This document shows positions 3,515 to 57,800 of a stretch of DNA of 64,000 bases, piece after piece. The stretch covers positions 209,110,111 to 209,174,110 of the forward strand of contig BTPG01000005.1 of the NCBI GenBank assembly GCA_036245525.1, given 5' to 3'. The translations under genes and the position numbers were made by a program. Origin of the DNA: Semisulcospira habei. Taxonomy: Eukaryota > Mollusca > Gastropoda > Semisulcospiridae. How positions within the stretch are numbered: the first letter of the stretch is position 1; every line of letters begins with the position of its first letter. Below the pieces are notes generated by a model, which saw only the letters and a program-made list of their open reading frames with translations, had not been told where the DNA came from and searched no databases.

Positions 3515-5740
3515 TTGGCAATTAAGACTGAGTGTTAGTGAAGGGGGGTGAAGTTGATGTTTTTGTCGTGAGGTGATTAACATGCTCTTCGTCTTATCAG
3601 GATGTAGTACCATGTGGTTTTTACAGCACCAATCAGAAACTTCGTCAAGACTGGATTGTAAATGACGACTAATATCATGACTGTTCTTACCAGGAACGTG
3701 AAGGCTTGTGTCGTCCGCAAAGAGATTACAATTAACGTTAGGGTCGGAAATATGTAAAGGAAGGTCATTTATGAAAAGTGAAAATAGGAGGGGTCCTAGA
3801 ATTGATCCTTGAGGAACTCCAAATTTAACATGGCCTTGCCTAGAGTATTGACCATGGACGTATACTTTTTGCTTTCGGTCTTCCAAATAGGATCTGAGAA
3901 AAGTTATTGTAGTTTCGTCCATGTGGTATATTGTAAGCTTATGTAAGAGAATGTCATGGTCCACAAGATCAAAAGCTTTTTTAAGATCTAGGAAAACTGC
4001 TCCCGACATTAAATTTTTATTAATTGACTCTAGCCAGCAATCTACAATATGTGTGAGTGCTGACTGGCATGAATGGGTCGGGCGAAAACCGGACTGATGA
4101 ATGTTTAGTAAATTACCCTTCTCAAGGAAAGTAAGAAGATGCTTGTGAATGTGCCGCTCTAATGGCTTTGACAAGGCTGAGAGCAAAGAGATCGGTCGGT
4201 AATTATGAATATCTTCAAGGTTTTTAGTTTTGGGGATCGGAACTACCTTTGCTTGCTTCAGGACTGTAGGAAAATAACTTTTATTTATACACAGATTAAA
4301 AATGTATGTAAGGGATTGTATTGTGTAAGGCAACGACAATTTTAGTGATTGGTTATCAATATCATCAATCCCTCTACTTTTCTTATTCGGCATGTCAGAA
4401 ATATACTTACCGATTTCTGCTATTGATATATTAGGAATTACGAATTTTTGTGTTATATTTGTTGCTTCGCTGAAAGATCTCAGAAGACTTGAGATACTAT
4501 ATTGCGTACTGATATTTGATGTCGATTGGGCTAGATTTTCAGCGGCTGAAAGAAAATATTTGTTAAATTTGTCTGAAGTTAAATGAGATGGTATTTCTGG
4601 GGCTGCTTTTCCTTTAGTAATAGCATTTAGTGCTCTCCAAATGGATGCTGTGTCACGGTTTTCTGAGATCATTTGATTGAAGAATGCTTTTTTTGCAGCC
4701 CTTACCAGATATTTTACTTGATTACGTTGTTTTTTGTAGTCATCAAAGCGTTTTTCTTTTCTAAGTTTGTCTCTGAGCGACATAGCATTTTTAATGTCCA
4801 ATGTTAACCAGGGCGGCATGGTAGTATGTTTAACGCGTTTTACCCTGAGGGGCGCGTGCTTGTTAAGGACTCCGAGGAACAGACTCATCCAGCAAGACAA
4901 GGCATTGTTAGGGCAAGTGTGGCAGTATACATCATCAAAGGGTGTATTGTGCAAATCGTGCATGAATTTATCCCTATCAAATTTTTTATAAGAACGATAC
5001 ATTATAGTTGTGTGTTTGTTTTTCTTTGGCCTATCAAGCTTCAGAGCAATTGTACAACATACCGGGTTATGATCACTAATGGCTAAGGTCGGGACATTCG
5101 CACTAGTTATTCTGTCCTTGTTGGTAACATAAATATGATCAATGAGCGTTGATGATGTAGATGTGATTCTAGTTTGTGCTTTAATTATTTGTGTCAAACC
5201 AAATAGCGATGTGGTCATGGTCCATGCTGCATTTGATCCCTTAGGTCTAGATAGGTCGATGTTGAAATCACCTAGGAGAAATATGTCACATTTGCTCCGA
5301 CTTGCCTTGTCCATCAAAGCTGTAAACTCATCAAACCAATCCCAGCCGGCTGCCGGATTTCTATAGACAAAGCCGATTAGTATAGGTGATGACTGTGGTG
5401 TTTTTAACTCGAGCCACATACACTCCACTTTGGTAAATTCGAGGTCTAGACGCCGCTTGGCGTAGCTAGATACAGACGTATGCATGTAAATCGCTAGCCC
5501 TGTGTGTTGAGGCAAATCGGCATCTTTACGAAATATTTTATAGTTAGGAGTAGAGATGGAAGCATTTCTGATTTTGTTCTTAAGTCTTGATTCAGAAACA
5601 CCAAAAATGTGGAAGTGTTCGGGCTGGTTCAAAAACACACAGAGATCTGGCACTTTATTGACAAGATGATAGATATTCAGGTGACCTATTTTAAGTCCAC
5701 CACCACAAAATAAATCATTTTTTGTACCACCGTCAGGCAT
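3515..5740 (-). pseudogene. LINE-B1 ORF2: endonuclease plus reverse transcriptase, C-terminus displaced
   Basis: ATG at 5740. N-terminal endonuclease: IGHLNIYHL, VSESRL, GFVYRNPAA, LGDFNIDL, LIDHIYVTN, ISDHNPVCC (catalytic SDH present). Reverse transcriptase: KKSRGIDDIDNQ, NYRPISLLSALSKPLERHI, HQSGFRPTHSCQSAL, VFLDLKKAFDLVDHDIL, FGVPQGSILGPLLF and NLFADDTSLHV (catalytic FADD present). The frame is open for about 740 codons and then runs a short way into the LINE-A 5' UTR. The thumb and C-terminal domain, seen in LINE-B2 and B3, are missing from this side of the insertion. Confidence 0.9.
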
Positions 5741-14540: not shown

Positions 14541-15103
14541 GTCAGTACAGGGTGAGACAGGTATAGCGGTATATATCCATCAATCCATTCTACACATAAC
14601 CCGCAGGCGACAAGACCTAGAAACTGGTGATGTAGAATGTATTTGGGTAGAAATCAAAAACTCTAAATCCCCGCCCTTACTTTTTGGGTTTCTGTATCGA
14701 AACCCCGCAGCCACCTTTGAGTGGTACGATAGCTTTTTACACATGATTGATAAAACAGACATTCACAACAAAGATGTTCTCCTTCTTGGAGATTTTAATA
14801 TTGACTTTCTTAAACCCCATCCATCATGGGAATGTACTACTACCCTAGTCGGTCTCCACCAATTGGTAACATCGCCCACCAGAATTACGCCATCATCAGC
14901 CACTATTATAGACCATATTTATACCAACAAACCTCAAGCAGTTAATAGCACTCAAGTTAATAGTCAGTGTAAGCGACCACTACCCGGTTAGCTGCAAATG
15001 GCTGTCAAGACTTCCAAAGCTAAAAAAGCAAGTCCACACTTGCATAACTTACAGATCGTTAAAAACTTTAATGAAAGTGTATTCTTGGCTGATTTAGCCA
15101 CAA

Positions 15104-15160
15104 TCCGCCGTGAGATGGCCTTAGTCGCCTGCTCGGCGTTAAACCCAAATAACTAACTAA
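15104..15160 (+). mobile_element. Micro-retroposon copy 1 (57 bp) with 15-bp target-site duplication
   Basis: Inserted in LINE-B2. Perfect duplication CTGATTTAGCCACAA at 15089-15103 and 15161-15175. The insert starts TCCGCCGTGAGATGG, contains CGCCTGCTCGGCG and GGCGTTAAACCC, and ends in an (AACT)n tail. Other copies: 18461-18518, 39321-39378 and 57507-57561. Confidence 0.88.
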
Positions 15161-16326
15161 CTGATTTAGCCACAACACGGTTCATCGACGTGTATAACGA
15201 TAGTGACCCAAATAAAGCATTAGATACCTGGTACCGGATTTTTCTTGGTGTGCTGAACAAACACGCGCCTCTGAGACAAAAAAGAGTGAAATACGCTACC
15301 ATTCCACCATGGCTGACTGCGGATCTGATTGAGGCAATGGAACATAGAGGCCAGCTGAGAAGAGAGAAGCGGTTTACTGAATACAAAACACAGCGTAATC
15401 GTGTTAAATATATGGTTTTAAATGCAAAGAGATCTCTTTTCGATAAAGTAGTTAAACAAAGCAAAGACTCATCTACTGTATTGCGTGCCATTAATTTAGT
15501 GACTAGAGGTACAAGTAAAAATAGTGCGCCTTTATCACCCCACCTCACTGCAAATAGGCTTAACGACCACTTTATCTCTATAGTGGAATCGTTATTCCCA
15601 ACAGGAAATAACTCGTGTGATTATGTTTGTCCAAACACGCTAGTACACCACTGTAACCGGGAAAATACGGACAAAGAACCATTCACGATACCGCCTATAG
15701 CAGTCCACGAAGTGGGTAAATTAATTTTCTTGATGGAAAATAAAAAGTCATCCGGGCCTGATGAGATCAGCTCAAAAATACTCAAGATATCTCTTCCATA
15801 TATTGTCGAAAGTATTACATATATTTACAATCTCTGTATTAACCAAAACTGTTTTCCGGACGCATTTAAAGACGCAAAAGTGTACCCCTACCAAAATCAA
15901 AAGATCTGAGTGAAATCAACAACCTTGGCCCCATATCACTATTACCTGTTTTGTCGAAGCCTTTAGAGCGGCACATCCATAAGCATCTATCTGAATACTT
16001 AGAAACCGAAATCTGATCCATTCACTGCAGTCAGGCTTCAGACCGAACCATTCCTGTCACCCTGCCTTGATAAGGATGGTAGATACCTGGTTATCATCTA
16101 TTAATGATTCCAAACTAACAGGTGTAGTGTTCTTAGACTTCCATAAAGCCTTTGACATGGTGAACCACGACATACTTATTAAGAAAATATCCTTATATAC
16201 TAAAAGCGCGGCCGTGTTTTTCAAATCCTACATAGAAAACAGAAGACAAAAAGTTATCCTTAATGGTACATACTCTAGTCACTGCAAAGTCAAGCATGGA
16301 GTGCCCCAGGGCTCAATTTTAGGCCC

Positions 16327-18167: not shown

Positions 18168-18460
18168 GCGTGTGTGTGTGCTTGTGTCTATGAATGTATG
18201 TATGGATATGTACACCTTTACAACTCTGTGTATGTGTGAAATTTTGTTTTATTCCACTTCTTCAATGATTTTTTTTTTAAACTTTATATTTCAATTTTTT
18301 GTGCGTTTTATATTTTGTTTTTCACAATTTAAAGATAGTATTTTGTGATTTGTGCACTAAATGTAAAGTAGATTAGCAACGGCAAGTTCGAAAAATGGTT
18401 CACCAAAACTTTCACCGTTGTAAAATAAAGAATCATTGTCATTGTCATTCTCTCTCTCTC

Positions 18461-18518
18461 CCGCCGTGAGTTGGCCTTAGTCGCCTATGCTCGGCGTTAA
18501 ACCCAGATAACTAACTAA
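18461..18518 (+). mobile_element. Micro-retroposon copy 2, inside (CT)n
   Basis: 58-bp insert starting CCGCCGTGAGTTGG with GGCGTTAAACCC and an AACT tail, flanked on both sides by (CT)n, so its target duplication cannot be resolved. Confidence 0.8.
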
Positions 18519-18544
18519 CTCTCTCTCTCTCTCTCTGCAACACG

Positions 18545-38700: not shown

Positions 38701-39872
38701 AAAAAAATAAACTAAATAAAATTAAAAAAAAAATTAAATTAAAAAAATTAAAAAAGAAGCCAGGACCGTTCAATGAACGTCAGGGGCGGTTCCGTTATCT
38801 TGACAGCGGGGGCGGGGGGGGGGGGGGAGGGGGGCTAGGGGTTGAGGGGTTCCAACGTTTTGTTTGGGACCTTCAACCTGACACAACAGGCCTCCCCCGA
38901 CACAAAACCTTCTTCCTTCTTCCAGTAGCCCCAAAATCAAACGGGGGAGGTGGGGGTGGGAGGGTGGGGGGGGGAGGGGTGTAGAAAAAAGGAGAAGGCG
39001 CGTGTGTGTCAACACTCTCCGACACCACTCGCAAAAAAATATCAAAGGGGGAGTGGGGGGGGGGGGAGGTGTGTGGGGTGGGGTGGGGTGTTCCAACATC
39101 CCCAAAAGAGACTTCTTTGTTATAGCATTTTAAACAATTTTGGGTCTGGAGGGTGAGTCCCGGAACACCTAGGAGTCCCCCCCCCCCCTCCTGAACATGA
39201 AAACAAATTAGTCTCAGCAAGAGACATAAATCCTCATGAGCCCCCGCAAATGCGGAGGCTCATGAGGATCTATGCCTCTTGCAGTTGGAGCGTCAGGTTC
39301 ACTTTTTCTCGACAGTCAAATTTGGTTTGGTTATTTGGGTTTAACGCCGAGCAGGCGACTAAGGCCATCTCACGGCGGTCGACAGTCAAAGGGTAAAAGT
39401 ATCAAAGCAGAGCTTACGACAGTACGCACACTGACCACAAACTATGGCGGCATTAATATCGACCGTGATCATGATACTGAGCTCAAGGGGAGTTCCTGAT
39501 TAGCTTGGCGTGGCCTTACAAGGCGCCAAGCTAATCAGGCACTACCCTTGAGATATCGTGGTGGTTCCATTTCGCATGCATGGCGCCTTCCTTCGCCCGT
39601 ATGGCGGAAACGAACTAACCGCGTGACTAAGCAAATTTCAGCGGTAAACAGCCGTTTTCTGATAAACCTCCTCCATTCATGGTGAGAAGCTAGTGTCTGT
39701 CTGTTTACGAATCACGACAGTGAAAGAGGCCAGCAACACTCACCCTGCTGTAGCGAAGCCCTGTTTTCTGGAAAACCTCCTCCGCGGTGAGAATCTGGGG
39801 CGGGTCAGTCTGGTGCAGATCCTGGAGGTTTTCCTCCGAGTCGTCACGGTACCAGGCGCGTATAGTCTCCAT
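35596..39872 (-). CDS. ADI1: Acireductone dioxygenase (four coding exons)
   Basis: Metal-dependent cupin enzyme of the methionine salvage pathway: oxidises acireductone to formate and 4-methylthio-2-oxobutanoate (Fe form). Exons on minus: 39872-39744, 37669-37556, 36899-36720 and 35727-35596, all phase 0 with GT-AG borders, giving 184 aa (human 179). Residues: METIRAWYRDDSEENLQDLH, RDTLPNYDEKLKSFYAEHLH, FEVRDYSDHWVRLHLRKGD, LPPGVYHRMTL, QYVKMLRLYSEVPQW. Metal ligands His89, His91, Glu95 and His134 are present. ATG at 39872; an acceptor-like TTCAG 21 nt upstream suggests a separate 5' UTR exon. No lesion is seen, so the gene is probably functional; introns and 3' UTR carry hairpin elements. 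Confidence 0.95.
35962..36070. repeat. Palindromic repeat in ADI1 intron 3
   Basis: AGTTGCATTAGCAAGCCTAA, AATCCTGTGCAAGCC arm and its complement GGCTTGCACAGGATTAAG...TTATGCAACT. Confidence 0.8.
36071..36444. other. ADI1 intron 3, C-rich low complexity
   Basis: Two imperfect copies of a GGAAGGTCNTCANACGCCTCT-like stretch (36248, 36307) and C-runs. No coding signal. Confidence 0.5.
36445..36632. mobile_element. T1/T2-like palindromic element with partly duplicated left arm
   Basis: The left arm part TTCAAGGGTGGTGCCAGAAT occurs twice before the single right arm; centre GGCGCCTATCGGCGCC. Right end decayed. Lies about 90 bp from ADI1 exon 3. Confidence 0.8.
36720..36899 (-). CDS. ADI1: ADI1 coding exon 3 (metal-binding cupin core)
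   Basis: 60 codons, LKSFYAEHLH to MTLDSQ, containing HxHx3E and the distal His. Acceptor CTCTTTGCAG, donor CAG|GTACTG. Confidence 0.96.
37336..37525. repeat. About 65-bp tandem repeat, three units, ADI1 intron 2
   Basis: Units carry AGACATATTTGCTTTG and ACAAAAACTATCCTCC; a small GTAGACG repetition is in the first. Confidence 0.7.
37556..37669 (-). CDS. ADI1: ADI1 coding exon 2
   Basis: 38 codons, VEQCEDEAEQ to TLPNYDEK. Acceptor TTTGGCAG, donor AAA|GTAAGAAG. Confidence 0.95.
37760..37830. repeat. Decayed T-type half element
   Basis: CGCGCCAAGCTATTCTGGCA resembles a right arm; the left arm is barely recognisable. Confidence 0.4.
38029..38245. mobile_element. T2 palindromic element, shares its TTAA with the next element
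   Basis: TTAACTCATTCACCCCC left end, about 60-bp arms around GGCGCCCATAGGCGCC, right end GCAGAGTGTGTTAA. The TTAA at 38242-38245 also begins the F2 element. Confidence 0.9.
38242..38460. mobile_element. F2 palindromic element, uninterrupted reference copy
   Basis: Ends TTAACCCGTTCAGCGCTG and GGCACTGAAGGGGTTAA. Hairpin CAAGAGGTATAGATCCTC...GAGGATCTATGCCTCTTG. It preserves the internal TTAA (38404-38407) that is occupied in the 49-kb copy. Confidence 0.9.
38680..39190. repeat. A-rich tract and G-rich repeat, related to 47580-47900
   Basis: Shared landmarks AGGGGCGG, TTTGTTTGGGACCTTC, ACCTGACA, AGGCCTCCCC, TTTTAAACAATTTTGGGTCT. Many G-runs; no coding. Confidence 0.65.
39205..39300. mobile_element. 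F2 hairpin, partial
   Basis: GCAAGAGACATAAATCCTCA...GGCTCATGAGGATCTATGCC around CCGCAAATGCGG. Terminal parts decayed; its right part was split by the micro-retroposon at 39321. Confidence 0.75.
39321..39378 (-). mobile_element. Micro-retroposon copy 3 (58 bp), 12-bp target-site duplication
   Basis: Duplication TCGACAGTCAAA at 39309-39320 and 39379-39390. On minus the insert reads CCGCCGTGAGATGGCC...GGCGTTAAACCC then a short A-rich tail. Confidence 0.88.
39440..39575. mobile_element. T1-like palindrome, diverged
   Basis: TGATTAGCTTGGCGTGGCC and AAGGCGCCAAGCTAATCAGG around the centre; flanking arms CTCAAGGGGAG / CTACCCTTGAG. Confidence 0.65.
39744..39872 (-). CDS. ADI1: ADI1 coding exon 1
   Basis: 43 codons, METIRAWYRD to TGLRYSR. 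Donor AGG|GTGAGTG. The sequence upstream of the ATG stays open to a TTCAG at 39894-39898, so the exon may begin at 39893 with a 5' UTR part. Confidence 0.92.
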
Positions 39873-51400: not shown

Positions 51401-54400
51401 TGTATATTTAGGGTTGTTGTGTATGCTTAGGGTGTTGAGTATGTTTAGGGTGTTGAGTATGTTTAGGGTTGTTGAGTATGTTTAGGGTTGTTGTGTATGT
51501 TTAGGGTATTGTGTAGGCTATATTTAGGGTGTTGAATATCTTTAGGGTGTTGAGTATGTTTAGGGTGTTGTGTATATTTAGGGTGTTGAATATGTTTAAG
51601 GTGTTGTGTATGTTTAGGGTGTTGAATATGTTTAGGGTGTTGAGTATGTTTAGGGTGTTGTGTATATTTAGGGTGTTGAATATGTTTAAGGTGTTGTGTA
51701 TGTTTAGGGTGTTGAATATGTTTAGGGTGTTGAGTATGTTTAGGGTGTTGAGTATGTTTAGGGTGTTGTGTATATTTAGGGTTGTTGTGTATGTTTAGGG
51801 TATTGTGTAGGCTATATTTAGGGTGTTGAATATCTTTAGGGTGTTGAGTATGTTTAGGGTGTTGTGTATATTTAGGGTGTTGAGTATGTTTAGGGTGTTG
51901 TGTATATTTAGGGTGTTGAATATGTTTAGGGTGTTGAGTATGTTTAGGGTGTTGAGTATGTTTAGGGTTGTTGAGTATGTTTAGGGTTGTTGTGTTTGTT
52001 TAGGGTATTGTGTAGGCTATATTTAGGGTGTTGAATATCTTTAGGGTGTTGAGTATGTTTAGGGTGTTGTGTATATTTAGGGTGTTGGATATGTTTAAGG
52101 TGTTGTGTATGTTTAGGGTGTTGAGTATGTTTAGGGTGTTGAGTATGTTTAGGGTGTTGAGTATGTTTAGGGTTGTTGAGTATGTTTAGGGTTGTTGTGT
52201 ATGTTTAGGGTATTGTGTAGGCTATATTTAGGGTGTTGAATATCTTTAGGGTGTTGAGTATGTTTAGGGTGTTGTGTATATTTAGGGTGTTGAATATGTT
52301 TAAGGTGTTGTGTATGTTTAGGGTGTTGAGTATGTTTAGGGTGTTGAGTATGTTTAGGGTGTTGAGTATGTTTAGGGTATTTAGGGTGTTGAGTATGTTT
52401 AGGGTGTTGAGTATGTTTAGGGTTGTTGAGTATGTTTAGGGTTGTTGTGTATGTTTAGGGTATTGTGTAGGCTATATTTAGGGTGTTGAATATCTTTAGG
52501 GTGTTGAGTATGTTTAGGGTGTTGTGTATATTTAGGGTGTTGAATATGTTTAAAGGTGTTGTGTATGTTTAGGGTGTTGAGTATGTTTAGGGTGTTGAGT
52601 ATGTTTAGGGTGTTGAGTATGTTTAGGGTTGTTGAGTATGTTTAGGGTTGTTGTGTATGTTTAGGGTATTGTGTAGGCTATATTTAGGGTGTTGAGTATG
52701 TTTAGGGTGTTGTGTATATTTAGGGTGTTGAATATGTTTAAGGTGTTGTGTATGTTTAGGGTGTTGAGTATGTTTAGGGTGTTGAGTATGTTTAGGGTGT
52801 TGAGTATGTTTAGGGTTGTTGAGTATGTTTAGGGTGTTGAGTATGTTTAGGGTTGTTGAGTATGTTTAGGGTTGTTGTGTATGTTTAGGGTTGTTGTGTA
52901 TGTTTAGGGTGTTGAGTATGTTTAGGGTGTTGAGTATGTTTAGGGTGTTGTGTGTGTTTAGGGTGTTGAGTATGCTTAGGGTGTTGAGTATGTTTAGGGT
53001 GTTGAGTATGCTTAGGGTGTTGAGTATGTTTAGGGTGTTGAGTATGCTTAGGGTGTTGAGTATGTTTAGGGTGTTGAGTATGTTTAGGGTGTTGTGTATG
53101 TTTAGGGTGTTGAGTATGTTTAGGGTGTTGAGTATGTTGAGTATGCTTAGGGTGTTGAGTATGCTTAGGGTGTTGAGTATGTTTAGGGTGTTGAGTATGT
53201 TTAGGGTGTTGTGTATGTTTAGGGTGTTGTGTATGTTTAGGGTGTTGAGTATGCTTAGGGTGTTGAGTATGTTTAGGGTGTTGAGTATGTTTAGGGTGTT
53301 GTGTTTGTTTAGGGTGTTGTGTATGTTTAGGGTGTTGAGTATGCTTAGGGTGTTGAGTATGTTTAGGGTGTTGAGTATGTTTAGGGTGTTGAGTATGTTG
53401 AGATTGTTGAGTATGTTTAGGGTGTTGAGTATGTTTAGGGTGTTGAGTATGTTGAGAGTGTTGAGTATGTTTAGGGTGTTGAGTATGTTTAGGGTGTTGA
53501 GTATGTTTAGAGTGTTGAGTATGTTTAGGGTGTTGAATATGTTTAGGGTGTTGTGTATGTTTAGGGTGTTGAGTATGTTTAGGGTACAAGCTGGTTATCC
53601 ATCGTGATTTCACTCTCGTCCGTCGTCGGTACGCAATGCGCATAAGGCCATCTGGCCAATGTGGGCCGCCGTAAGGTGTCCGACGTCGGCACGACGGCCT
53701 TTTGCTCATTGGGTAGTCGTTCGTTCAATCGAAGCCTCACAAGTACCTTCTCCTTTGCTGCCGATGGCGTAGACCGCTGTGCGTTCGGGAACTGGTTTGG
53801 ACAGAACGGGCTGTGCCAGCGTCAGGTACGGGATCTCGCTCAGCTCCTTACTGAAACACGTCAGCAGTAACAGCTCAGTAAGCAAACGATCGTCGGGCCG
53901 ACGTGCGCGGACTCACTGCAGCCGACATCGGCCCGATGACCCGTATGCTTACTGAGAGGCTGGTTACAATTCAAAGATCCAAATAGCGGAACTTGGGTCC
54001 AAAACAGGCTTGCCTTGAAACTAATCTGGCACTACCGTTGAATTATCATGGTCGACCCATCTCCTGCTGTTGTGCGTCAGGGCTGAATGGGTTAACCAGA
54101 CCAACATGGATGCGAACCCAATGCGCAAAACGCTATCGGGCCGACGTCGACCGCCGCTGGCCTGCGAACAGCCATTGCGATCCCGTCCTGACCGAACTGA
54201 ACTGAACCCTATGAAGGCCGGGTAAGACGACGTCCTGATGAAAGCTGTCTATGGGTGATCAGCCACACGTTTAAGCTGTCAGATAGGCCGAGCAGTTAAA
54301 CTTATAAACCACTCAATCGTTTTAAGTACTAGAACTGGAATATTCTATGACTCATAACGGTAGTAGGGGAGCTGGTTAGCTGAGGTGGTAGTGTGTTCGA

Positions 54401-54795
54401 CTTTCGTCCGAAAGGTCGTGGGATCAAACACAGCTGAGGTCAAAACTTGTTAAGACTGTTTTCGGTGCCCCGTCTTTGAAATCACCTTCATGGTGGACAA
54501 AAGACGTACGTTAAACCCTAAACGTTTAACCTTTTTCTCTTTGCGGAATGGACGGTCTAGAATTGGATTACCCGTACACATTTAATCTCTAGAAGAGAGA
54601 AGATGTACATAATTGTCAACTGACCTAAGGAAACGCTTCTTATACACTTTGGAGTCCTCCATGTTGGCCAGAACGATCTCCTGGCTGTCGAGCCAGGCCA
54701 GGGTCACCAGGTGTCGATCAGTGGGGGTATCGAACTGCTTCCGGCCGTTGGCATCAAATACTTGAAGCCTGCTCGAAGCCGTGCCAAGTTTCTGT

Positions 54796-54890
<95 letters not shown>

Positions 54891-57800
54891 CGATGGTCGT
54901 AGTTTCTATGTGACCAAAAACATTTTCTCAACTGTGGTTTTGATGAATGGCAAACGTCTGTAGGCTGATACTGACCACCTTTTTGAGGCACATGGTTATA
55001 TTCCATTTTGTTGACAAAGTACGGTATACAATAATAAAATATGGATTAAAATCACTCAAACCATTTAGTATTATAACCAGTATCAAGTCTGCATATCTCG
55101 TTAGATCGCCCCTACCAGTACTGCTGACGGGCACAAAACATGGTCAACACAAAGCGACACTGATACAGATCCTCAGAAACCCTTATTGCACGTTCGCGTT
55201 TTCAGCTGCAAAATTTTAAAGTGGTCCTCTGTGTGTGTGGAATATTTCGTAAAGTTCGCTTCCTCACCCAAGTAACACCCTCCACGGCTCCTTCTCTCCC
55301 CCCCCCCACCCCCGCTCGCCACACCATCCCAATGCACAATTGACCGTAAGGCCAACGTCGGCCATATGGCCTTTTGCGCATTTGGCTCTTACCTTGATCC
55401 TTTTGCTCATAGAGCTCTTACCTTGATCCTTTTGCTCATAGAGCTCTTACCTTGATCCTTTTGCTCATAGAGCTCTTACCTTGATCCTTTTGCTCATAGA
55501 GCTCTTACCTTGATCCTTTTGCTCATAGAGCTCTTACCTTGATCCTTTTGCTCATAGAGCTCTTACCTTGATCCTTTTGCTCATAGAGCTCTTACCTTGA
55601 TCCTTTTGCTCATAGAGCTCTTACCTTGATCCTTTTGCTCATAGAGCTCTTACCTTGATCCTTTTGCTCATAGAGCTCTTACCTTGATCCTTTTGCTCAT
55701 AGAGCTCTTACCTTGATCCTTTTGCTGACCATGACCACTACGCCACCATGATTAACACAGATGGACTGGACCTCGCGAAGGGAACACTTGAACTTCAGCT
55801 GCAGTCTGGCGGTGCCTCCCTGTACTGCTCGTGTATCGTATCTTTGTTCGGGCACGTCATAATGTGGTTCGGGACTCTGTATAGCTCTGTGTGTCGTGCC
55901 TGTCAGACAGGGCATGGACTGCGCATGCACCATGGGTTTAGAAGGGATGGGTACATAAATGTCGTCATACGTGTCTTCATATGTGTGGGTCATGTAAGGG
56001 GGGTCATTTTGTGGGGTTGTGGAATACACGTGAACTGGTCTGATGGCGTACGGAGTGGCGCTTTGTGTAGGGCGCGCGGCGGCATATTGGTTAGTGCCGT
56101 AGTATGGGGAGCTTTTAGATGAACCGCGTGGCCTGGGTGGAAGAGGCGGGGGGCGGGATCTTGGGTTAAGTAAAAGTGTGTCGCCCCCACAGTCACTTCC
56201 ATCACTGTCTTCCCCAGCGTCCTGGCCTGCAATGTTGGCGTACGGGTGAGAGCTGGACACAGACTCTTGTTCCTGCTTACCGCTTGTGGATGGTGGGGCG
56301 GAAGGACCGGGTTTGGAATGAGCGAGCAAGACAACGTTTACTTCCGGGTCCGTGTTGGGCTTGGAACGTGTCATTGGCTCATACAGGTCCAGTCCCGTCT
56401 TCCCGGCTGGTGGTTTCTCTTCTATCGATTTAGAAGTGGTGGTAGCATCCATGCGTGTTGAGAGTTTAGCCACGGTACTGCCTTTGCTGTCGATGTGGTC
56501 GTACGTTTCGTCTGTCGTTTCCAGTTCTGTTCAGAATGTTGAAACAGATTTTTAGATGATATTAACTCATTCTGCCCGCGACATACCACAGCAAGATATA
56601 GCTCGACCATGATAATTCAAGGGTAGTTGCAGAATAGCTTGGTGCCTATAGGCGCCAAGCTACTCTGCCACCAGCCTTGAACTATCATGGTCGATCTGTC
56701 TCCTGAATTTAATGCAGTCCTCAGAGGATAACTCCAAAATGTGGGTATTTCGTACCTCAAGGAAAATGAGTTTTAAAAAAGTCACAAGAGCATATTATAG
56801 CCCTGGCGTTGAAACGCCATTACAACTTCTACCTACTAGCAACAACGCTTATCGTTTACAAACCAAGAATGCCAAGAACGTGTCATCACCACTTCTACCT
56901 ACTAGCAACAACGCTTATCGTTTACAAACCAAAAATGCCAAGAACGTGTCAAAGACCACAACAGTCAACACAAACTCCGTCACTACTTCTACCTAATAGC
57001 AAGGTTTCGTTTGCGACGAACGACTTAAAACAACAAACGAGAGAAGAATCAAGGCGGATAATCAGTTACCATAAGCACAGACAACACTTCAACATCTCCA
57101 AGAGGCATAAACGTATGTCTCTTGGAGATGTCTGGATGTCCCTCCGTGATTTTGCATGGCGTTTGACGTTGAGAGTCGATCGTCTCAAACGGAACTTTAG
57201 TCAGTAATGGCACGACAGCGACGGATATTATCAACACACCAAGAAATGACAAGAACGTGACAAGGACCATAACAGTCAACACATAACGCTCACTTTGAGT
57301 TATCTCCGTCACAGTGTGGTTTTCAGCAGCGGTCATTCTGGAGTGCATCTTTCGGCAGGACTCGCAGTACATCTGTTTGCAGTCTCTGCACAGTACGGTC
57401 ACCCCCCTTGAGTACATGTCCTCGTCACAGTTCAGGCAGCAGATGAGCCGGACTTCACCAGTGCCGGACTCGCCCTTAATGTACTCATTGTCCTTGGAAA
57501 CAGACATAGTTAGTTATTGGTGTTTAACGCCCAGCAGGCGACTCAGGCCGTCTTACGGCGGCTTGGAAACAGACAGTTGGTTAATTAGTCAGTTAGTTAT
57601 TAGTCAGTTAGTTATTAGTCAGTTAGTTATTAGTCAGTTAGTTATTAGGGATTACCACAGTAGCGAAACGTCTTCGGGCCCACGAAGGCCGTAGTAGTCT
57701 CGCGCACTGCAGTGGGCGCGCCCAATGCTGCCGTCGTTGGCCCGAGGCCGAGCAGATCACAAAGGCCACCTGACGGCGGAAAGGGGTCAAGCTCTCGCTA

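Follow-up and report, generated by a model that had tools for sequence, protein, structure and literature searches.

Micro copies of a LINE tail with one preferred 5′ start

Truncation of LINEs at the 5′ end is described in PMC3747384 as normally occurring at various positions and yielding copies of ∼100–1,000 bp. The same source assigns SINEs with a LINE tail to the stringent recognition type, and PMC6740152 introduces SIDEs as short, internally deleted LINEs. The micro copies analyzed here resemble 5′-truncated LINE copies in that they are a 3′-anchored part of a LINE with the parent's tail and target-site duplications (TSDs), and the LINE machinery presumably makes both. In contrast to truncated copies, micro copies are 57 bp long, and 35 of 42 sampled copies that lack LINE sequence upstream begin within 2 nt of one base, variable ends being confined to a minority. 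With SINEs they share small size, high number, the tail of a partner LINE at the end, and TSDs, but no head derived from a small RNA and no promoter was found in them, and the whole unit is LINE tail. The LINE-derived 3′ part and the TSDs of a SINE are present, and no tRNA, 7SL, or 5S head with a Pol III promoter was found. Like SIDEs, micro copies are short LINE derivatives; unlike SIDEs, they hold none of the LINE 5′ part. LINE 5′ sequence is absent between the TSD and the first base of the unit (C1), and in most TSD-bearing copies the TSD lies at C1 or a few nucleotides off. A full-text search of PMC, a scope outside which most subscription papers lie, returned no earlier description of tail-only LINE copies with a fixed end.

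The window, the whole 64-kb stretch of DNA analyzed, contains four micro copies of 55–59 bp, which the first-pass annotation had located beforehand. Its claims of a fixed start at CCGCCGT and of three perfect TSDs of 15, 12, and 14 bp were borne out, and these TSDs belong to copies 1, 3, and 4, respectively. Copy 1 (15104–15160, plus strand) has the same sequence as the LINE 3′ end, with C1 at 15105 and one additional T at 15104, and is flanked by perfect 15-bp duplications (CTGATTTAGCCACAA) at 15089–15103 and 15161–15175. Copy 2 (18461–18519, plus strand) matches the LINE tail at 93% and carries a 2-nt insertion. Its flanks at 18449–18460 and 18520–18531 are (CT)n on the plus strand and may be a 12-bp TSD of ambiguous register, which cannot be placed because it lies inside a (CT)n run. 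Copy 3 (39321–39378, minus strand, C1 at 39378) lies between perfect 12-bp duplications at 39309–39320 and 39379–39390 (TCGACAGTCAAA on the plus strand). Copy 4 (57507–57561, minus strand, C1 at 57561) matches the LINE tail at 89%, is of the AAACACC tail type, and has perfect 14-bp duplications at 57493–57506 and 57562–57575 (CTTGGAAACAGACA on the plus strand). With at most one mismatch, GGCGTTAAACCC is found at four places in the window, whereas the expected number is 0.21, and none of 100 shuffles reached four. On its 5′ side, copy 4 adjoins a ∼15-bp tandem repeat (TTAGTCAGTTAGTTA, 57576–57650), which, read on the opposite strand, is similar in sequence to the (TAAC)n tail. Two weak, diverged matches to the unit were found with nhmmer, at 57747–57779 of the window (minus strand, E 0.074) and at L017:4561–4600 (E 0.012, start within ∼1 nt of C1); both are perhaps very old copies.

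The unit corresponds exactly to the 3′ end of a ∼6-kb LINE and is not an independent element. In three of the first eight places (L006–L008), ∼1.5 kb of upstream sequence is common at 96–99% and ends in the exact 57-mer. The proposal that the 57-mer is a unit holds for its fixed 5′ end but not for its separateness, as it is the complete LINE 3′ end; the proposed LINE mobilization was supported. Two copies are full length (L009 and L010, ∼6 kb), carry 14-bp TSDs (CTGATTCAGTTGTG and CTGATTGCCTCATG, respectively), and both begin with CCTACCCGGCACC directly 3′ of the TSD. Others are 5′-truncated LINE copies with TSDs (L016, ∼1.27 kb; L022, ∼0.74 kb). The open ORF2 of L023 (1233 amino acids) contains endonuclease (PF14529, PF03372), reverse transcriptase (RT; PF00078), and RNase H (PF00075) domains, and a 481-amino acid ORF upstream of ORF2 in L010 has no Pfam match above the cut-off. 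The 3′ UTR of long copies typically reads TTTTTACCCATC directly followed by CCGCCGT, the boundary being C1, where the micro copies start, and the tail is (TAAC)n, a non-poly(A) tandem repeat.

I-superfamily-like LINEs are marked by an ORF2 that encodes an AP-type endonuclease, an RT, and an RNase H and by a non-poly(A) tandem tail. Judged by its ORF2 domains and tail, the parent LINE has these features, and it is apparently young. Where their source is named, ORF2 relatives come, among others, from a sea slug, a sea spider, and spiders and from assemblies of bivalve symbionts. One relative with a LINE-type tail lies in a 537-kb scaffold labeled as a bacterial symbiont (L116, NZ_JRAA01000003.1) and may be host sequence that was wrongly joined during assembly. 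At G000:C1:4863324-4877201, three LINE 3′ ends (L130–L132) are spaced ∼6,927 bp apart and their flanks resemble one another, two of them being nearly identical; this is probably a tandem duplication that takes in the LINE.

The same genome (1.98 Gb in 507 contigs, contigs C1–C8 having 178–344 Mb each) was searched for further copies. The exact 23-nt tail motif GGCGTTAAACCCAAATAACTAAC occurs 11,809 times and the exact 53-mer from CCGCCGT onward 3,579 times, LINE tails included in both counts; the reversed-pattern controls gave 0 each. The 57-base insertions are present by the thousand.

A first census, by similarity, comprised 40 places in a first set, 39 non-self places found with copy 4 as query, and 32 further places. 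After removal of duplicates it held 117 copies, those of the window counted in; LINE sequence precedes 30 of them and is missing upstream of 87. The 87 became 84 micro copies when the match at 57747–57779, the L017 match, and L073 were dropped. Anything shorter than the unit would have escaped its queries. For the two later query sets, in which the query carried at most one upstream base, a TSD was scored in 40 of the 49 micro copies, compared with 1.2% when flanks were exchanged between copies; it lay directly at C1 in 29 of the 40, 1 nt off in 6, and further off in 5. Some LINE copies end a short way upstream of C1 (L072 at 47 nt, L089 at 66 nt, and L051 at 98 nt). An AT preference before CCGCCG in the first 40 matches was discarded as ascertainment, as that query carried AT and the set obtained with copy 4 is without it. 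L073 is a LINE fragment, from the ORF2 interior, joined at C1. It was rejected as a decisive template-jump chimera, the join overlapping by ∼5 nt; no repeat of at least 10 nt connects its 3′ flank with upstream sequence.

A second census took 60 of the 11,809 places, picked by the 3′ motif GGCGTTAAACCCAAATAACTAAC alone and therefore blind to the 5′ end; all lie at 0.06–13.0 Mb of contig C1, that is, in one chromosome region and not a random draw. LINE sequence is found upstream in 18 of the 60 (one, L179, with an internal deletion) and is missing in 42. Among these 42, manual reading placed the start within 2 nt of C1 in 35, including two placed by alignment alone (L168 and L178) and two with internal deletions (L135 and L169). 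The latter begin with CCGCC and lack ∼8 and 13 internal nt, respectively, as if the polymerase had skipped part of a hairpin. Two further copies start a few bases inside or at an uncertain position (L123 and L153), and five are shorter (∼27–46 bp), start at positions 12–31, and each have a TSD (L137, L141, L148, L154, and L158). Automatic calling at a score of at least 8 assigned a TSD to 29 of the 42 (swapped control, 3.9%); the starts of these 29 fall at −2 to +4 in 22, at CCGCC shifted by internal deletions in 2, and at 12–31 in 5. When 100 nt upstream were read, 2 of the 18 LINE copies were seen to end 45–67 nt upstream of C1: L166 at ∼45 nt, a ∼0.1-kb copy with an 11-bp TSD, and L161 at ∼67 nt, in which no TSD was found. 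Exact 53-mers are present at 15 of the 60 places, 5 on LINEs and 10 not. If the share of 35 in 60 (58%) holds beyond this one region, extrapolation gives ∼7,000 micro copies starting at C1 genome-wide for one tail variant.

Copy length therefore shows a sharp peak at 57 bp on a low background of truncation, plus longer LINE copies. Ordinary truncation also happens, because 5 of the 42 copies end inside the unit and 2 of the 18 LINEs end near C1. That random 5′ truncation made all of the copies and the fixed start only looks fixed by chance is extremely improbable. Such a process would account for the other ends (L016 at 1.27 kb, L022 at 0.74 kb, L166 at ∼0.1 kb, and the five at 12–31), but the length distribution already contradicts it: in the census drawn without regard to the 5′ end, 35 of 42 starts fall at a single place, and in the first census 29 of 40 TSDs abut C1 exactly. 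This upholds the argument of the first-pass annotation that random truncation would not yield a fixed start. Neither of the two outcomes it had named against itself was encountered: we found no continuum of longer parents with random 5′ ends, and most sampled copies are not of LINE length, as they would be with a longer master of which most copies are full length. The LINE tail copies have TSDs mostly of 10–15 bp, as the LINE does, one sharply preferred 5′ end, and several tail types, and they are almost certainly tail-only LINE copies with a preferred start.

The tail types bear on the source of the copies. Micro and LINE members number 33 and 9 in CGGC/CCCAA, 11 and 10 in CGGC/CACCA, 16 and 4 in GGGC/CCCAA, and 6 and 3 in GGGC/CCCCA. 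The four commonest types thus have members of both kinds, and the micro copies therefore follow the evolution of the LINE. A further type, CGGC/CCCCA, has five micro copies and no LINE member. The T variant (AGTTGCC) comprises 9 LINE and 12 other copies among the 60 places of the second census. A micro-only GCTGGGCG subfamily was considered and dropped when 9 of 32 newly read loci proved to be LINEs. The simplest reading is that LINE RNA kept producing these copies across several subfamilies and that no single micro master lies behind them.

A true mini-SINE, with certain micro loci that have a transcription start of their own at C1 and multiply in trans, would fit the exact and constant start as well as the five CGGC/CCCCA copies. 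We nevertheless regard it as improbable, since the unit lacks a separate head, all four of the commonest tail types are also found on LINEs, which LINE RNA as the source would predict, and no Pol III RNA family was matched by the LINE 3′ end (tRNA, 7SL, 5S, and others, at E up to 10) or by the whole window, which has no Rfam match at gathering scores. ARAGORN found no tRNA, a weak negative, because it also found none at the SINE-like sequence at 54366. A resemblance to Pol III A and B boxes, judged by eye, was weak, with spacing too short. Six sub-threshold matches to ribozymes or known RNAs at 4700–5120 of L023 were likewise set aside, none reaching the gathering score; five lie upstream of the unit, and one, to an lncRNA, covers its first 9 nt by chance.

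The SINE-like sequence itself (54366–54530, plus strand), used for comparison only, has a different stem, with the plan of a stem followed by TTAAACCC at its 3′ end. The first-pass annotation had reported a 3′ motif common to this SINE and the micro copies and had suggested a common LINE partner; the sharing amounts to CGTTAAACCC and a similar plan, and a common partner is conjectural. Another SINE-like family ends in GTCCA..TGGAC followed by GTTAAACCC (L020:2060–3340 and L024:6802–6827), with three copies close together in L020.

In the main variant, the predicted minimum-energy fold (−12.9 kcal/mol) contains a stem of C2–G6 with C30–G34 directly before TTAAACCC. C1 lies 1–2 nt outside this predicted, weakly supported stem: the 57-mer folds with a z score of −1.53 against shuffles, 14 of 200 shuffles being at least as good. 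The two hairpins proposed earlier are the minimum-energy fold of copy 4 but suboptimal in the main variant, and the proposed G-U to G-C change in copy 4 is real but is not accompanied by two-sided compensation. A pairing test covered 38 distinct haplotypes other than the reference, indel-bearing copies being left out. Pairing was kept in 186 of 190 cells for the first hairpin, 297 of 304 for the second, and 164 of 190 for the long stem, with changes on both sides in 0, 0, and 1 case, respectively. Many of the long-stem losses fall at position 30, and one pair is lost in the GCTGGGCG type. An HDV-like fold was rejected by eye, as the topology does not fit.

That most copies begin at the same base suggests a discrete piece of LINE RNA that the LINE machinery pasted back. 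For such a fragment as template, we consider the chances to be about even. A discrete 3′ RNA fragment that is bound by the RT and serves as template is probably the best explanation; the tail-only origin is directly observed, and the mechanism is what we infer from it. The RT would bind the stem-loop that starts 1–2 nt inside C1 and abuts TTAAACCC. LINE RNA 5′ of the bound structure would then be removed, for instance by a 5′-to-3′ exonuclease that halts at the structured, protein-bound part. The left-over fragment of ∼57 nt would be the template for ordinary target-primed reverse transcription and be copied to its 5′ end.

Exonuclease-resistant viral RNAs (sfRNA) have a constant RNA 5′ end at the foot of a stem. 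The likeness is an analogy for the proposed mechanism only, as nothing in the micro copies is viral; among viral contigs, two patterns of the unit had no exact match, and no ORF2 relative was found.

The same start could also arise if the RT began on intact LINE RNA and left it at C1, its own binding site not being cleared as the protein would keep hold of the RNA directly 5′ of the recognition element, so that micro copies are abortive products. We consider this unlikely. It would fit the same sharp start in several tail types and the excess of copies without LINE upstream over those with it (42 against 18), but it needs an anchor 5′ of C1, and in the minimum-energy fold the 11 nt directly before C1 form no pairs. 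No conserved protein-binding element 5′ of C1 was identified, and the 60-place sample is without ends 1–44 nt upstream, though L044, from the first census, has 10 additional LINE-like nt at its 5′ side. The end of a template would explain C1 better than a roadblock, because a 3′-to-5′ polymerase should meet the structure before C1.

Alternatively, the LINE RNase H could free a longer cDNA, the 3′ end of which a host 3′-to-5′ exonuclease trims to the foot of the same stem, here formed in DNA. The RNase H domain in ORF2 and the position of C1 just outside the predicted stem are compatible with such trimming, but it would also hit full-length cDNA, yet full-length copies exist; we hold it to be very improbable.

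With an RNA fragment as the preferred template, we more tentatively propose, with somewhat more doubt than confidence, that the RT-bound 3′ structure survives as a ∼57-nt RNA and is a heavily used substrate of retroposition. This substrate would be promoterless, would come from RNA processing and not from transcription, and would have given rise to thousands of copies in one genome, recurring through successive LINE subfamilies.

A stem followed by (T)TAAACC may be a plan that extends across families. Two ORF2 relatives with 43–47% identity come from Solemya gill symbiont assemblies (presumably host DNA), and in the tails of these LINEs a stem lies directly before ATTAAACCC or TAAACC, followed by a short tandem repeat. 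Two SINE-like tails of this genome also have a stem before TTAAACCC, with 4 nt between in one of them. The stem letters differ among the Solemya-assembly relatives and the SINE-like tails, and (T)TAAACC follows. The plan is suggestive only, because the stretches were picked by eye; two of the five cross-family tails fold no better than a z score of −0.86.

Many independent natural insertions suggest that a LINE RT needs no more than ∼57 nt of RNA for an insertion, and they raise the testable question of why the copy ends at one base. Should the template be a processed RNA, the decay of LINE RNA would make its own parasite-like product, and short interspersed repeats could form with no promoter. 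Units of 57 bp would probably be overlooked or mislabeled in standard repeat annotation.

Several micro copies (L014, L018, L059, L069, and L093) lie, as judged by eye, in or beside what seems to be a single other repeat, which contains CCCTTGAATTA. This repeat may be a favored target of micro copies or may simply be abundant.
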